A stretch of 64,000 nt of DNA from a virus, in IMG/VR virus record IMGVR_UViG_3300022935_000005, positions 216,914 through 280,913 of that record; one strand, 5' to 3'. Under the pieces are notes generated by a model that was not told where the DNA came from, made no database searches, and saw only the letters and a program-made list of their open reading frames with translations. Positions 21,386 to 61,382 of this stretch are shown here, piece by piece (within the stretch, counting starts at the first letter, position 1; each line of letters begins with the position of its first letter). The translations under genes and the position numbers were made by a program.

Positions 21386-21613
21386 ATGAAAATCACAAAG
21401 AACCAACTTAGAAGAATTATCCGGGAAGAGCGCGCTAAGCTTGCACGTGGCAGAGCTGTTAACGAACAGTACTCACCGGGTCCCGAGGAGCGCCGCGCAC
21501 GGTCCGCGATCGACCAGATTGTCACAGACTTTCTAGAGAGCGATGAGGGTGATCCGGCGTTAATTGCAGAGATTCTGAGAGAGATTGCCAACGACGTCGA
21601 CGAAGAAATGTAG
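21386..21613 (+). CDS. MKITK-leader protein 1
   Basis: 75 residues, AGGAG upstream. Leader MKITKNQLRRIIREERAKL, then RGRAVNE before the mature-like part. The rest is a short acidic helical domain (IDQIVTDFLESDEG, IAEILREIANDVDEEM). First of the tandem array. The 170 nt upstream hold two hairpins (near 21223-21252 and 21265-21294) and no clear promoter. Proposed: a small head-internal protein carrying a capsid-targeting leader. Confidence 0.75.
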   Translation: MKITKNQLRRIIREERAKLARGRAVNEQYSPGPEERRARSAIDQIVTDFLESDEGDPALIAEILREIANDVDEEM

Positions 21614-21628
21614 TGGTCTGGGGGCGGC

Positions 21629-22165
21629 ATGAGAATCACAAAGAGACAACTTAGAAGAATTATCCGAGAAGCGATTGATGTTGTTGATAGAGACACTGGC
21701 GAAGTTATGCGCTTTTCTGATGATAGTAGCGACAGCATGGCAGATCTTCCTGAAAAAGCCTGGCCTGACCTGGTAAAGCGGCTTGGGTTGAGCCCTAAAG
21801 ACGTGGGTCTTGATGCTGCCGGTAATCAAGGATTTGAGCTAGACCAGAATGAGTTTATACGCCTTGACAACGAGACTCGTGAAAAAGCCTACAACCGTAA
21901 GATGAAAAAACAGGCAGCTGCCTACAAGGCTGATCGGGAAAGATTGGATATCGACAATCTCCTCGAGAGACTCCGCTATTGGGCACAAGACGCAGCGTCT
22001 GATTACATGGCTGACAATCCAGACACCGACCTGCAGGATATCGCCTATGACCTTGCGGACGCTTGGCAATTCGCGTTCGAAGAAGATGAACGAGAAGAAC
22101 TGTTGTGGCACTTTGACGGTGACCTTAACGACCTTAAGATTTTCGCAGCGGAGAGTATGGGATGA
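21629..22165 (+). CDS. MKITK-leader protein 2
   Basis: 178 residues. Leader MRITKRQLRRIIREA, where the site IRE|A comes early. The body is charged and helical: DLPEKAWPDLVKRLGLSPK, then RERLDIDNLLERLRYWAQ and DLADAWQFAFEEDEREELLW. Overlaps the next gene (ATGA). Body unrelated to its neighbours. Confidence 0.75.
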   Translation: MRITKRQLRRIIREAIDVVDRDTGEVMRFSDDSSDSMADLPEKAWPDLVKRLGLSPKDVGLDAAGNQGFELDQNEFIRLDNETREKAYNRKMKKQAAAYKADRERLDIDNLLERLRYWAQDAASDYMADNPDTDLQDIAYDLADAWQFAFEEDEREELLWHFDGDLNDLKIFAAESMG

Positions 22166-22458
22166 AAATCACAAAACGTCAACTACGAAGAATCATTAAG
22201 GAAGAGAAAGCTCGCATTTTGGCTGAGCAACAACTTGATCCTCAAGTTGCCGCCCAAGCTCTTGCGGAGCTAAAGAACGATGGGTGGTTTAGTATGATAC
22301 AAACAGCGGCTACTGACGCAGCTGGTGACCTTGAGCAGCTCAGTGATCAGGTTGATGTCAAGTTAATGGACGCCGGCCTGAACGAGCTTGCCGTAGATAT
22401 CAGAAGTGTTGTTGAGCTATTGGACAAGATTAGACAAGCAGCGTACGGTCAGAGGTAA
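22162..22458 (+). CDS. MKITK-leader protein 3
   Basis: 98 residues. Leader MKITKRQLRRIIKEEKARIL ending AE before QQLD (L-A-E type site). Helical body (VAAQALAELKNDGWFSMI, VKLMDAGLNELAVDIRSVVE), similar in the DAGxxxLAxxxR motif to protein 6. Confidence 0.75.
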   Translation: MKITKRQLRRIIKEEKARILAEQQLDPQVAAQALAELKNDGWFSMIQTAATDAAGDLEQLSDQVDVKLMDAGLNELAVDIRSVVELLDKIRQAAYGQR

Positions 22459-22459
22459 C

Positions 22460-22567
22460 ATGATGAAAAAAAAGCTAATGGAGCTGCAAAAGCTCGCTAG
22501 AGATATTCGCGTGAATGTCCAACCGACAGCTGAGCAATCAGCAAGCAAACGAGGGAGTTTCGAATGA
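22460..22567 (+). CDS. tiny coupled ORF in leader array
   Basis: 35 residues, MMKKKLMELQKLARDIRVNV onward, stop overlapping the next start (ATGA). A short basic helix with the same Leu/Arg rhythm as the leader. It may only couple translation of the next gene, or be a degenerate array member. Confidence 0.45.
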   Translation: MMKKKLMELQKLARDIRVNVQPTAEQSASKRGSFE

Positions 22568-23019
22568 AAATTACAAAGACGCAACTAAGACAGATTGTTA
22601 GAGAAAGCGCAGCGATGGACGATGCTGTTTATGAGGCTGGCTACAAAGACGCGATGCAAGATCGCCCACATGGTGCTAATGCAGATATGCGTGATATGGA
22701 TCCAAGATCATATGACTACGGTTTCGATAAGGGTACCGCTGACCGCATGGACATGCAGCGACCGCTTGGAACCAGAGGGTTTTACGAAGGTAAGGTGAGA
22801 ATCAAAAAGAGCGACCTTCAAAGAATCGTCAAGGAAGAGCTTATGTCTGAAGTCCGGACCGACGCGGACCTTGAAATGGACGCTATGTGGGACGAACTGT
22901 TTCAGGCACTAAAGAACAAAAGCTTCGGACTTGACCACGGTCTAGAAAGAGATGAAATTTACATCATGACAGGTGCTGCTGAGGGCATCACGGTCAAGAT
23001 AATGCGAAGAGGTCGATAA
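22564..23019 (+). CDS. MKITK-leader protein 4, with a second internal leader
   Basis: 151 residues. Leader MKITKTQLRQIVRESAAMDD. At residues about 77-95 a second leader-like stretch occurs: VRIKKSDLQRIVKEELMSE, with an M-S-E site. The internal GTG at 22795 could also start a separate 74-residue protein. The first part has YEAGYKDAMQDRPHG and YDYGFDKGTADR motifs (also seen at 61158). Either a fusion of two array genes or nested genes. Confidence 0.75.
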   Translation: MKITKTQLRQIVRESAAMDDAVYEAGYKDAMQDRPHGANADMRDMDPRSYDYGFDKGTADRMDMQRPLGTRGFYEGKVRIKKSDLQRIVKEELMSEVRTDADLEMDAMWDELFQALKNKSFGLDHGLERDEIYIMTGAAEGITVKIMRRGR

Positions 23020-23246
23020 TGCGTATTGCAAAGTCAGAGCTTAGAAGAATTATTGCAGAAGAGAGAGCAAAGCTTCAAGAACAGCGCCGCGGCCCAAGCG
23101 AAGCGCAAATAGAAGACGCCGTCTCTGGGATCGAGTTTGAGTTAAACAGACTGTATGACCAAGGGATGGATAACGCTGGCTTGCACAAAGTGCTCGACCA
23201 GATTAAGATTGACATTGACCGTGGATTTGTAGGAGAGCCAAGATGA
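23019..23246 (+). CDS. MKITK-leader protein 5
   Basis: 75 residues. Leader MRIAKSELRRIIAEERAKLQE followed by QRRG (L-Q-E site). Helical body (EDAVSGIEFELNRLYDQGMD, LDQIKIDID). Starts on the stop of protein 4 (TAATG). Confidence 0.75.
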   Translation: MRIAKSELRRIIAEERAKLQEQRRGPSEAQIEDAVSGIEFELNRLYDQGMDNAGLHKVLDQIKIDIDRGFVGEPR

Positions 23247-23503
23247 AAATCACAAAGAACCAATTACGAAGAATCATCAAAGAAGAGCGTGCTAAGCTGC
23301 TCAAAGAAGGTGGATATCGTCACCCGAAAACCGGTGAGGATCTGCTTCTTATGTTAAATGACGTCGTCGACAAACTCATGGACGCTGGTATGGATTTCTA
23401 CGAGCTTGCTGATGAACTTCGAGGTTTGGCTGATGATGTGGAAAACAGCCAGCCTGAAGAGTCTCCGAAATTTATCGACATGACAGATCCAAGGGAGTTG
23501 TAA
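23243..23503 (+). CDS. MKITK-leader protein 6
   Basis: 86 residues. Leader MKITKNQLRRIIKEERAKLL ending KE before GGYRHP (L-K-E site). Body with VDKLMDAGMDFYELADELRG, helical and acidic. ATGA overlap upstream, TAATG downstream. Confidence 0.75.
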   Translation: MKITKNQLRRIIKEERAKLLKEGGYRHPKTGEDLLLMLNDVVDKLMDAGMDFYELADELRGLADDVENSQPEESPKFIDMTDPREL

Positions 23504-23892
23504 TGAAAATCACGAAGAGCCAACTAAGAAGAATCATTAAGGAAGAGAAGGCGAAGCTGCTCAAAGAGTATGGCGCTATGAACATGGAAGCCCTGAGCCC
23601 GCTGGTTCAGTTTGGACAGGCGTATGTTGGTCTCGGCGATGCAGTTCAGTCACAGCTGATTGATCTTGTCAATGCACACATCGAAGGACGCATCGAAGAC
23701 GCAGTATATGAGATGAATCCAAATGCACTTGACATGGCGTTCCAGAGATTACAGCAACCCTTATCTGCTCTAGCAAGAGCAGGTAGCGAAGACGCCGAGG
23801 AAGTGATGGATGCCATGGAGGCAGCTGCTGAAATATTCGCAGAGGGCGACGCAGAAGTGGACGCCGATGCACGAGCTGCAGGAGATATATAA
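23503..23892 (+). CDS. MKITK-leader protein 7
   Basis: 129 residues. Leader MKITKSQLRRIIKEEKAKLL ending KE before YGAM. Acidic, Ala-rich helical body (AFQRLQQPLSALARAGSEDA, EVMDAMEAAAEIFAEGDAEV). Confidence 0.75.
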   Translation: MKITKSQLRRIIKEEKAKLLKEYGAMNMEALSPLVQFGQAYVGLGDAVQSQLIDLVNAHIEGRIEDAVYEMNPNALDMAFQRLQQPLSALARAGSEDAEEVMDAMEAAAEIFAEGDAEVDADARAAGDI

Positions 23893-23893
23893 A

Positions 23894-24211
23894 ATGAAAA
23901 TCACAAAGAACCAACTTAGAAGAATTATCAAAGAAGAGAAGACAAAACTTCTCGTTGAGATGAACGCTGTGGCAGACGCCGAGCGCTCCCTGGGTTTGTA
24001 CGCTAACGCATCCACAGTCGACAAGCTGTCTAGCGCCCTACAAAGTCTTTTGATGGAAGTCGAAACAGGTGCGATTGAAGACGGTCTTGAAGAAGATGAA
24101 GCTGAAGACATGGCAGCGAACGCTGGACTCATGGCAGTCGCTAACGCATTCCAGTCAGTGGGTATGATTGCTGAATACGACGCACTATACAGATTACTAC
24201 AGCGGGGTTAA
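23894..24211 (+). CDS. MKITK-leader protein 8
   Basis: 105 residues from ATG 23894 (the frame extends upstream but overlaps protein 7). Leader MKITKNQLRRIIKEEKTKLL ending VE before MNAV (L-V-E site). Helical body LSSALQSLLMEVETGAIEDG, then EDMAANAGLMAVANAFQ. Confidence 0.75.
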   Translation: MKITKNQLRRIIKEEKTKLLVEMNAVADAERSLGLYANASTVDKLSSALQSLLMEVETGAIEDGLEEDEAEDMAANAGLMAVANAFQSVGMIAEYDALYRLLQRG

Positions 24212-24217
24212 GACAAG

Positions 24218-24511
24218 ATGAAAATCACAAAGAACCAACTGCGAAGAATTATCAAGGAAGAGAAAGCGAAGCTTATGAACGAGCAGTTCAATTTTGCTGC
24301 TGCCGATCAAGAGATGATTAAGTGCGCTACACAGATGGGAGCTCTATTGGCAGGCCGGCCTGACGTTGCCACGGCAGTCCGTGATGCTCTAGCTGCAGGT
24401 CCTTTTAAGAAGGGAGCCGAGGCTCTTTTTAAAGCGTATGAGTCTGCACAAGCTGCTGCCGACACAGAGTACATGAGCTTTGGTGCCGGATACGATGACG
24501 ACGATTTTTAG
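24218..24511 (+). CDS. MKITK-leader protein 9
   Basis: 97 residues. Leader MKITKNQLRRIIKEEKAKLM ending NE before QFNF. Body: Ala-rich helices with one Cys and a C-terminal acidic tail GAGYDDDDF. Confidence 0.75.
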   Translation: MKITKNQLRRIIKEEKAKLMNEQFNFAAADQEMIKCATQMGALLAGRPDVATAVRDALAAGPFKKGAEALFKAYESAQAAADTEYMSFGAGYDDDDF

Positions 24512-24526
24512 GACTAGGAGAACAAA

Positions 24527-24988
24527 ATGAAAATCACAAAAAGACAATTACTTAGAATAATCAGAGAAGAAAAGGCCCGCATCGCTGAGCAGACTGTAGG
24601 TGTTGAAGACGTTTCTCAGTCAGAGGATGCGTTCGGTGGTGGAGACGTCGAGGAGGAGATCTTTGTCGATGCAGATGCCGATTCTTTACTGAACCAGAAC
24701 GATGATCCCGGTGAGGTTACCGACATCGAGGTCATACCTGAGCGTGTACGTTTGAAGAGACACCTCCGCAAGATTGTGTCAGAAGTTGCTGGCGGTGGTG
24801 GAGCGCTTCCTCCCGTTGATGACCTCGCTACTAAGCTTGCTAGTGTTGGATCTGAAGAAGCTCTTGACTTTATCCAGCGTGTTCTTGCCGCTATGTCGCG
24901 TAAAGCTGGCGCCTCGGCGGCTCCCGCTGAAGATGCAGTGGTAGAACCACCGGCTCCAATGCCCCCGGTTCCTGACGAAGAAGTTTAA
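24527..24988 (+). CDS. MKITK-leader protein 10
   Basis: 153 residues, AGGAG upstream. Leader MKITKRQLLRIIREEKARI ending AE before QTVG (I-A-E site, the same tripeptide as in T4 IPIII). Long acidic stretch (GGDVEEEIFVDADADS), a second basic helix VRLKRHLRKIVSEV, and a Pro/Ala-rich tail. Last of the simple leader proteins before the kinase. Confidence 0.75.
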   Translation: MKITKRQLLRIIREEKARIAEQTVGVEDVSQSEDAFGGGDVEEEIFVDADADSLLNQNDDPGEVTDIEVIPERVRLKRHLRKIVSEVAGGGGALPPVDDLATKLASVGSEEALDFIQRVLAAMSRKAGASAAPAEDAVVEPPAPMPPVPDEEV

Positions 24989-25012
24989 TTAGCTAGAAGA
25001 GGAGGATGCCTC

Positions 25013-25777
25013 ATGGAAAGCAAAAGCTTACGTCTTATAAGACAACTTATACGCGAATCTCTCCTCGCTGAAGGTGTCTATGATCCGGGGGTCCTGAAAG
25101 CTGTTTTTATGGCTGGCGGACCAGGAAGTGGAAAAAGCTTCACTGCTAAGAAGATCTTTGGTGTACCGAGAGAAGTTGCAGCATACGCGACAGGTACTGC
25201 TAGCGGCTTGAAGCTTGTCAATTCAGATCCAGCATTTGAACATTTCCTCAAGAAAGCGGGTATCGATCCTGCTAGCCTTGGAAAGATGTCAAAAGAGGAG
25301 TTCGAAGCTGTAACAGTCGGACCCGATAGTCCACGTGGTAAGGCAAAGACTCTCAGGGGCCAAGCTCAAGAACTATATCAGGGCGGCCGACTAGGGCTAG
25401 TCATCGACGGCACTGGAGACGACTTTGAAAAGATTAGTCGGAAGAAAGGTGAGCTTGAAAAGCTTGGGTACGATACCTACATGATTTTCGTCAACACCTC
25501 AGAAGAAGTGGCACTACAAAGAAACAGAGATCGTGAACGCAAGCTTCCTGACGAACTCGTATCTCAGATCTGGGGTGATGTCCAAAAGAACCTCGGCGCG
25601 TTTCAACAACTCTTCGGTTCTGACCGCATCGCGATTATTGACAATACAGAGTACGGTCCAGTTCCAGAAAAAGTCCAGAAAGCCGTTGACAAGTTCATCT
25701 CTCAACCAGTTAAGAATATCATCGGTAAGAAGTGGATTGAGAACGAGCTTCGTATGAAAGACCGCTCTGACAAATAA
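25013..25777 (+). CDS. P-loop kinase (zeta-toxin-like) with leader
   Basis: 254 residues, GAGGAGG upstream. N terminus SLRLIRQLIRESLLAEGVYD mimics the array leader and has an L-A-E|G site. A P-loop kinase follows: Walker A GGPGSGKSFTAKK (about 35-47), VNSDPAFEHF, a central region ending LVIDGTGDDFEKI (Walker B-like), and a lid NRDRERKLPDELV. Closest in style to zeta-toxin/polynucleotide-kinase-like enzymes that phosphorylate small substrates. The leader and position suggest it is packaged in the head and delivered with DNA. Substrate unknown. Confidence 0.8.
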   Translation: MESKSLRLIRQLIRESLLAEGVYDPGVLKAVFMAGGPGSGKSFTAKKIFGVPREVAAYATGTASGLKLVNSDPAFEHFLKKAGIDPASLGKMSKEEFEAVTVGPDSPRGKAKTLRGQAQELYQGGRLGLVIDGTGDDFEKISRKKGELEKLGYDTYMIFVNTSEEVALQRNRDRERKLPDELVSQIWGDVQKNLGAFQQLFGSDRIAIIDNTEYGPVPEKVQKAVDKFISQPVKNIIGKKWIENELRMKDRSDK

Positions 25778-30417: not shown

Positions 30418-30461
30418 CTAACACTCAAAGGCGTATATTTATATCTGCAAGGAGTTTGACT

Positions 30462-30851
30462 ATGAAAATAACAGAAAGCAACATCAGAAAGATAATCAGA
30501 GAAGAGCTCTCCTCACTTATGGAGCAGGACGAGGCGAAGCCAAAGAAGCTCGATGATCTTGACTTTAAGTCTGATGACCGAATGGAGTATGAGAGATGGG
30601 CTCGTTCTGCTGGTCACGTTTCTCCTGAAGTCCAATCAACTCTAGTTTCGTATTTCTTAAACCAAAATCTACAGAATGCTCATGACTTGCACCAGAGGCT
30701 CTGTGACGAACTCGGTTTAGACCATGATGCAGTGATGGCGGCTATGGAAAACCGACTAGAAAAAGAAGAAGATCCAGCTGCAGAGGAATCTGCTCGAGAG
30801 CTCGATCTAGCACGCGTCGCAGAAGCAGTATCTGCAATCTCTAAGCTGTAA
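30462..30851 (+). CDS. MKITE-leader protein
   Basis: 129 residues, AAGGAG upstream. Leader MKITESNIRKIIREELSSLM with L-M-E before QDEAKPKK, the same leader family as the 21-25 kb array but placed alone. Helical acidic body (SPEVQSTLVSYFLNQNLQNA, ESARELDLARVAEAV). A TATTTATA element lies 19-26 nt before the start. Confidence 0.75.
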   Translation: MKITESNIRKIIREELSSLMEQDEAKPKKLDDLDFKSDDRMEYERWARSAGHVSPEVQSTLVSYFLNQNLQNAHDLHQRLCDELGLDHDAVMAAMENRLEKEEDPAAEESARELDLARVAEAVSAISKL

Positions 30852-46239: not shown

Positions 46240-46268
46240 TTGTAATCTGCTACTATTTCTTTTATATT
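46240..46268 (+). promoter_or_regulatory. TTGTAA-type promoter
   Basis: -35 TTGTAA 46240-46245, 17-nt spacer, -10 TATATT 46263-46268. Drives 46302. Confidence 0.6.
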
Positions 46269-46301
46269 TTATATTATAGGGCAAATCACTAAGGAGGCCA
46301 C

Positions 46302-46490
46302 ATGAGACACGATACGATTGTTGAAATTACTCCCGACGGCAGACCAGCTTTGCGGCTGGTAATCGTTCCAGACAGCTACTCTAGACCTCCAGAGAATGAC
46401 CACCCAGAACCAGAAAGTGTAGTAATCATTTCCTACGAAGAAGATGACCCTTACGTCGTGAAGGAAAATACCGTCACTTGGGAAGTCTAA
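46302..46490 (+). CDS. hypothetical small acidic protein
   Basis: 62 residues, AAGGAGGCCAC before ATG. MRHDTIVEITPDGRPALRLV then acidic VVIISYEEDDPYVV. Unknown; stop overlaps the next start (TAATG). Confidence 0.6.
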   Translation: MRHDTIVEITPDGRPALRLVIVPDSYSRPPENDHPEPESVVIISYEEDDPYVVKENTVTWEV

Positions 46491-46717
46491 TGAAGCCCGG
46501 CGACTTAGTGAGGTTTCACCAGTGGGGTGATTTAGCTGATGTTAACGACTGGTCAACTACCCCGAAGTCTAAAGTCGGTGTTCTGATAGAGCACAATAAG
46601 CTCTTCGGTCACGTCGACATCTTGTATGAAGGTAATGTCATAAGAGAGCGCTCTGCTTTCGTAGAAAAAGCTGGAAAACGAGATTTAGCCAGAGAAGAAG
46701 ATGAATTGCCAAACTGA
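46490..46717 (+). CDS. small SH3-like protein
   Basis: 75 residues. MKPGDLVRFHQWGDLADVND, KVGVLIEHNKLFGHVDILYE and RSAFVEKAG: clear GDLV family member. Overlaps both neighbours. Confidence 0.65.
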   Translation: MKPGDLVRFHQWGDLADVNDWSTTPKSKVGVLIEHNKLFGHVDILYEGNVIRERSAFVEKAGKRDLAREEDELPN

Positions 46718-60877: not shown

Positions 60878-61156
60878 ATGAAAATCACAAAAAGACAGCT
60901 TAGAGGGATTATCAGAGAAGCTATGCAGCCCGGCGGAATGGCTGTACGTTTGCAAACAAATAAGCTGGTGAAAGCGGGTCTTGCAGATTTTTCAGGACCT
61001 ATCGAGTACAAGAGTCCACAAAATTTTGTCATTAGAGACGTAGAGAAATCCAAAGTGCCTGAATTCATTAGCTGGATCGAGGAAATCGATTCAATGATGC
61101 GCCATGAAGAACCAGGATCCGCGCCTCACTTGGTAGACTTGCATTACGGAGTGTAG
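60878..61156 (+). CDS. MKITK-leader protein
   Basis: 92 residues from ATG 60878 (GGAGG upstream; the frame extends back to 60821). Leader MKITKRQLRGIIREAMQPGG with an I-R-E|A site. Body YKSPQNFVIRDVEKSKVPEF. TATATTTATC lies 22-31 nt before the start. Lies between RNA modules A and B. Confidence 0.75.
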   Translation: MKITKRQLRGIIREAMQPGGMAVRLQTNKLVKAGLADFSGPIEYKSPQNFVIRDVEKSKVPEFISWIEEIDSMMRHEEPGSAPHLVDLHYGV

Positions 61157-61157
61157 A

Positions 61158-61382
61158 ATGAAAATCACAAAGCGACAACTAAGAAGAATTATTAGAGAAG
61201 CTACTGTATCCCCTAAGTTACCCAATCCAGATCCTCACTATGAAGATGGATGGAATGACGCTATTGTGTACGGTGAACCTAGACAAACTCCCACTCATCC
61301 ACCCAAAGCCGTTGATGCGTATTGGGACGGTTATCAAGATGGTGAAGATCATGCACGAAGGTCCGAAGAGCCTCTTCATTAA
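61158..61382 (+). CDS. MKITK-leader protein
   Basis: 74 residues, starts 2 nt after the previous stop. Leader MKITKRQLRRIIREATVSPK (I-R-E|A). Body EDGWNDAIVYGEPRQTP and YWDGYQDGEDHA: the YxxGYxDG-type motif also seen in leader protein 4 (22564). Confidence 0.75.
   Translation: MKITKRQLRRIIREATVSPKLPNPDPHYEDGWNDAIVYGEPRQTPTHPPKAVDAYWDGYQDGEDHARRSEEPLH

Follow-up and report, generated by a model that had tools for sequence, protein, structure and literature searches.

A common leader on otherwise unrelated proteins of a jumbo phage as a probable capsid-targeting signal

A leader common to a tandem gene array

The window analysed here comprises the final 64 kb (bases 216,914-280,913) of a 280,913-bp IMG/VR phage record and contains ten tandem open reading frames (ORFs; 21386-24988) whose products open with the leader M[KR]I[TA]Kx[QE]L[RL].I[IV].E and then diverge. 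An eleventh leader ORF of the series encodes a P-loop kinase with a variant leader followed by G (Table 1). The spacing is operon-like, with gaps of -4 to +24 nt and a single gap of 105 nt. From residue 23 onward the array bodies have no mutual similarity at E ≤ 1e-3, the best pair reaching E = 0.004 across 28 residues. ORF starts and body comparison therefore confirm a preliminary description of ten successive genes plus a kinase with a common leader and diverging bodies. Its coordinates were correct, but it understated the system, as the window contains three additional leader genes and the rest of the genome many more. Its statement that most leaders end in L/I/M-x-E holds past the leader core for seven of the ten array genes (LAE, LQE, LKE, LKE, LVE, MNE and IAE) and for the kinase (LAE), but not for the other three.

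Two classes of leader were defined, class A (MKITKxQLRRIIxEE) and class B (MxLLREYIRELLxE). Hidden Markov models (HMMs) gave 131 N-terminal and 37 internal matches for class A and 42 and 10 for class B, part of the internal matches being merely upstream in-frame starts. Shuffled-decoy ORF sets gave zero leader-HMM matches at ≥9 bits. Within residues 15-27, [LIM]xE is found in 102 of 179 class A leaders (shuffles, 34.9 ± 5.0, with a maximum of 55 in 2000), and most class A leaders without it past the core have I-x-E at residue 14. Class B leaders end in L/I-x-E in 55 of 56 cases. Within the leaders, synonymous differences (pS) were 0.62-0.78 and nonsynonymous differences (pN) 0.14-0.22. Since pS is near saturation and pN is low, the protein sequence of the leader is under purifying selection, with no recent copying of DNA.

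A genome-wide count, proposed in the preliminary description, found 31 leader genes in this phage by HMM (19 class A and 12 class B). They form arrays at 12.6-14 kb, 199-205.6 kb (ten class B genes) and 238-242 kb (the window array) of the record, plus singles. Five related jumbo-phage records (202-293 kb) have 28-52 leader genes each, and all six phages together have 235, counted by simple ORF calling with the near-identical record G009 left out. Their bodies fall into ~131 clusters with 89 singletons; these cluster counts are approximate, because a 26-member cluster probably results from single-linkage chaining. Local duplication also contributes, as three class B paralogues outside the window (G000:199947, 201070 and 203508) have SVDPKIMSM[IV]DR in common behind the leader before they diverge.

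Beyond these relatives, a cognate leader, M[KR][IL][TS]E..LR.I[IV][KR]EE...x-E, opens ~25 genes of LR756508, a distant 484-kb record. At 152.4-156.4 kb seven such genes directly precede matches to an S77 protease at 156.5-158.1 kb, so that loci L284-L300 (e.g. record 152404-156383) present a leader family of its own adjoining its protease. The class B profile matched nothing in Microcystis phage Mel-JY01, LR756508 or Flavobacterium phage immuto. A tblastn search of 50,697 phage records with a 22-aa leader query gave no match, the query being too short.

Table 1. Leader genes and internal leaders of the window
Feature	Coordinates	Strand	Description
Leader gene 1	21386..21613	+	75 aa, MKITKNQLRRIIREE..., acidic body, pI ~4.1
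Leader gene 2	21629..22165	+	178 aa, MRITKRQLRRIIRE then AIDVV; same-junction homologues in G001 and G005
Leader gene 3	22162..22458	+	98 aa, leader end ILAE
Leader gene 4	22564..23019	+	151 aa, second leader within; possible two-unit fusion
Internal leader of gene 4	22795..22854	+	VRIKKSDLQRIVKEELMSE; 3' segment matches separate leader gene G002 185149, across only 21 residues
Leader gene 5	23019..23246	+	75 aa, MRIAKSELRRIIAEERAKLQE
Leader gene 6	23243..23503	+	86 aa, leader end LLKE/GGY
Leader gene 7	23503..23892	+	129 aa, leader end LLKE/YGA
Leader gene 8	23894..24211	+	105 aa, leader end LLVE/MNA
Leader gene 9	24218..24511	+	97 aa, leader end LMNE/QFN
Leader gene 10	24527..24988	+	153 aa, leader end IAE/QTV
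Weak internal leader-like stretch of gene 10	24755..24784	+	KRHLRKIVSE, 8.2 bits
P-loop kinase, zeta-toxin/polynucleotide-kinase fold	25013..25777	+	MESKSLRLIRQLIRESLLAE then GVYDPG; predicted cut E20/G21
Further leader gene	30456..30851	+	MTMKITESNIRKIIREELSSLME
Further leader gene	60878..61156	+	MKITKRQLRGIIREAM
Further leader gene	61158..61382	+	MKITKRQLRRIIREAT

Head genes and the kinase junction

The search for a prohead protease, also suggested in the preliminary description, found a gp21-type enzyme within a head cluster in T4 order. Lack of such an enzyme, named there as a refutation of capsid targeting, is thereby excluded. At 102-113 kb the record encodes a terminase, a gp20-type portal (PF07230), the protease and a gp23-type capsid protein (PF07068). 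The protease belongs to Peptidase_S77 (PF03420, E = 8.8e-26), and its catalytic His/Ser motifs GE.[ND]HP and G[IV]SSRG align with those of T4 gp21. In the capsid proteins of relatives L[RK]E is kept near residue 60, in most as LLENQAxQ[VIL]L[RK]E, a position comparable to the T4 gp23 site FLTE/A.

Between the protease and scaffold genes lie two genes for small proteins, found in 57-59 distinct relatives, with the N termini MAKxxRxxLKxLVKECLxEIL and MAKxxKLTPxLLRKIVLEEK. The hhalign E values of the class A leader profile are 9.5e-8 and 1.2e-4 against these two, ≥ 0.019 against the remaining eight head-cluster N termini and, for a reversed profile against the head proteins, ≥ 0.05. For the head-cluster leader protein 107690, no homologue was found in named phages.

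The head genes of relatives show further features. The S77 protease of LR756508 was matched as two pieces inside one 576-aa frame (record 156507-158102), and that of G023 lies within a 718-aa frame (record 46243-46608); these may reflect an insertion such as an intein, or a fusion. A tandem second gp23-type capsid gene is present in L057, L058, L060, L075 and L095, possibly a gp23/gp24-like vertex pair. Another clade protein (alignment A5; L148:2219-3499, L139:15636-16832, L125:11007-12224 and L163:13743-14990) keeps [LI]-x-E-Q, a possible internal protease site, in the middle of a variable region.

Homologues of the kinase were drawn from viral contigs and named phages, giving 45 distinct sequences. 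Their leaders differ freely in sequence and length, from a few residues to more than 50, or consist of a fusion. At the junction with the body, the residue before the conserved G[VIL].D (P1) is E in 45/45. P3 is L in 34, I in 8 and V in 3, and P2 is unconserved (0.91 bits). The junction is thus [LIM]xE in 42 sequences, and in all 45 if V is counted. Overall it reads [L/I/V]-x-E followed by [G/A], which is the rule of T4 gp21, a protease that cleaves after L/I-x-E (PMC9026906). The kinase of Methylophilales phage Melnitz begins MKTFAELQE/GVYDP, resembling MKTYQEFIAE/A of T4 IPII and IPIII. An S77 protease was found in 14 of 17 kinase-bearing records tested, the other three being records of 62-75 kb.

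The AlphaFold2 model of the kinase contains a separate, low-confidence leader helix (residues 4-17) and, beginning near residue 21, a confidently predicted domain with a fold matching that of zeta toxin and polynucleotide kinase. L18-A19-E20 fall in the break between the two. Cellular homologues were limited to five matches, all on metagenome-assembled-genome contigs of 3-28 kb that are possibly phage. When the junction test was repeated on three other bodies, too few relatives were found. A second kinase type occurs inside long proteins of L191, L193, L201 and L220, behind PLKE/[AGS]V.DKY, again an L-x-E junction.

Cargo bodies and fused proteins

Most of the 135 leader proteins scanned lack a Pfam match. 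The matches obtained were to GNAT, DUF192, NUDIX, zeta toxin, HD_4, HAD and SprT in Pfam and to RelA/SpoT in NCBIfam, and PADLOC gave one weak match. Clade-wide, the recognised cargo consists of GNAT, NUDIX, HD/SpoT-like, HAD, DUF192, CCA-adding, PAP2 and zeta/PNK-like kinase proteins. The median isoelectric point (pI) of the bodies is 4.55 for class A and 5.12 for class B (all ORFs, 5.80); that some acidic bodies are DNA mimics is speculation. An ADP-ribosyltransferase identity was suspected for cargo with a YRG motif, and was unsupported by Pfam or PDB sequence search. In LR756508, ~10 further genes start MKxKxLLxE and contain YRG/FRG motifs reminiscent of ADP-ribosyltransferases, a likeness that Pfam did not support.

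Leaders and bodies are combined in different ways across the clade. Sister phages encode homologues of the NUDIX, HAD, DUF192 and HD cargo that lack a leader. One body, ..E/QVVGYTPP.., follows a class A leader in G002 but one of class B in G001 and G005; judged from sequence, the two classes are interchangeable.

Leaders also recur inside fused proteins, the segments of which are separate leader genes in sister phages. A 923-aa ORF of G001 runs DUF192, leader, CCA-adding domain, leader, GNAT-like segment, leader, PAP2, and its third segment is homologous to separate class B leader genes. A 1114-aa ORF of G006 contains homologues of partly separate G002 genes, with junctions that end in [L/I]-x-E. 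The body of leader gene 7 has a G001 homologue that follows the internal leader of a 303-aa fusion. Such proteins may be cargo polyproteins, with several enzymes per chain and a leader plus L-x-E at each junction. The chain would be packaged whole and then cut into separate effectors inside the prohead. Such a use of the head protease, if real, has no description for phages in the open-licence literature searched. Gene fusions that retain their leaders would look similar to polyproteins, but the start Met is lost while the helix and L-x-E are kept, which favours functional internal leaders.

Capsid targeting, its alternatives and known systems

The interpretation we prefer, with a probability of roughly 0.8, is that the leader is a T4-like capsid-targeting signal that is cut off by the prohead protease and has been expanded into a large packaged arsenal. 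The preliminary description had favoured capsid targeting, and this is supported by the S77 protease, the profile match to the protease-adjoining proteins and the conserved kinase junctions. Purifying selection on the leader, the exchange of leader classes on one body, the leaderless homologues of cargo enzymes, the leader genes beside the LR756508 protease and the break in the kinase model point the same way. The leader would form an amphipathic helix and dock the cargo onto the prohead core. The gp21-type protease would then cut after the terminal L/I-x-E, as the conservation of the 45 junctions suggests, and the freed body would stay in the head and leave with the DNA. With the ten array genes and the kinase included, the arsenal of this phage would number at least 31 cargo proteins, mostly small and acidic. 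On this view each particle would bring a large set of ready-made proteins into the bacterium. By analogy with T4, the cargo probably counters host defences or reprogrammes the host before phage transcription.

Several points weigh against capsid targeting. In array genes 21386, 21629 and 22564 the sole site is the I/V-x-E at residue 14. Because amphipathic helices favour an L..E spacing as well, helix grammar could account for some of the L-x-E excess, and the L and E of the kinase junction lie right beside the conserved domain and could be part of its fold. Compared by eye, the leaders differ in sequence from the T4 targeting sequence MKTYQEFIAE and have the pattern alone in common with it; the likeness is closer in MKTFAELQE of Melnitz. 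The bodies are acidic, whereas T4 internal proteins are basic. Lastly, we infer packaging, cleavage and injection by analogy with T4 Ip1-3 and Alt (PMC9026906, PMC12373910) rather than from observation.

Alternatively, the leader proteins could be parts of the prohead core or scaffold that are cut up and leave before DNA packaging, without being delivered. The leader profile matches best the two small head-cluster proteins, which are positioned like T4 gp67/gp68; in T4, core proteins are cleaved at L/I-x-E and for the most part lost (PMC9026906); and many bodies are small and acidic. We nevertheless consider this unlikely, since the bodies vary widely among sister phages, unlike core parts, the cargo includes enzymes with cellular substrates, and leaderless homologues of the same enzymes occur within the clade.

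Still less probable is a localisation or interaction helix without a capsid role, serving a phage compartment, RNA polymerase or a partner protein, with L-x-E as helix grammar. Short basic amphipathic helices are generic, and both the divergence from the T4 targeting sequence and the inferred capsid location leave room for such a role. However, the same helix starts the two genes adjoining the protease, which alone among the head proteins tested match the profile. The kinase junctions, with P1 = E, P3 = L/I/V and a free P2, form a protease logo unlike a helix pattern, S77 protease and kinase co-occur, and junction motifs are retained inside fusions. The profile match and the 45/45 junctions likewise weaken the broader alternative, raised in the preliminary description, that the leader is some other domain.

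That recent repeat or mobile DNA copied one start, without a functional leader, onto many genes would fit a tandem array with near-identical first 15 residues, but is scarcely credible, as pS and pN rule out recent duplication and the leader persists with unrelated bodies in other phages and in a second sequence class.

If capsid targeting is correct, each genome in a large group of marine jumbo phages encodes 28-52 tagged proteins that are carried ready-made. The leader would be a bioinformatic handle, making any ORF that starts with it a candidate first-minute effector and nominating the ~131 body clusters, most without annotation, as candidate effectors. It would also add another short tag, different from the first, with which foreign proteins could be loaded into phage heads. 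Tad1 has been called the sole anti-defence protein described in jumbo phages (PMC13282480).

Among known systems, phage P1 DarB (PMC9024508) is an injected anti-restriction protein that likewise bears a capsid signal at its N terminus, but there the signal is on one large protein, whereas here a short tag is common to dozens. The inner-body and ejection proteins of phiKZ and SPN3US (PMC5694885) provide a jumbo-phage precedent for the packaging of many cleaved proteins, as predicted here, and SPN3US gp53 and gp54 have an identical 15-residue start (PMC5694885). Those phages differ in having an S80 prohead protease, other cleavage logos and several propeptides of more than 100 residues. The present phage has an S77 protease, a short leader and a gp23-type capsid protein in place of a phiKZ-like head.

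The closest resemblance is to T4. Alt is an enzyme with a short cleaved leader that is carried in the head and injected (PMC9026906), as predicted here from the genes; no ADP-ribosyltransferase is established among the present cargo, which has kinase, GNAT, NUDIX, HD, HAD, DUF192, CCA-adding and PAP2 proteins instead. T4 Ip1-3, alike only in their leader, act on type IV restriction enzymes, each inhibiting a different one (PMC12373910), and ten residues of IPIII suffice for packaging (PMC9026906). Like Ip1-3 (PMC9026906, PMC12373910), the proteins described here have unrelated bodies, each behind a short N-terminal leader with L/I-x-E at its end (IAE in IPII and IPIII), together with a gp21-type protease, clustered accessory genes and variation between relatives. 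In the open-licence literature searched, no description of these leader sequences or of such an expansion was found. Unlike T4, which has three Ips, with at least ten across its relatives, these phages have 28-52 leader genes each, and their proteins differ from the Ips in leader sequence (14-24 aa), in having acidic bodies and two leader classes, and in the internal leaders of fusions. The system is thus of a known kind, that of the T4 internal proteins, and what is new is its scale, its acidic cargo and its possible cargo polyproteins.

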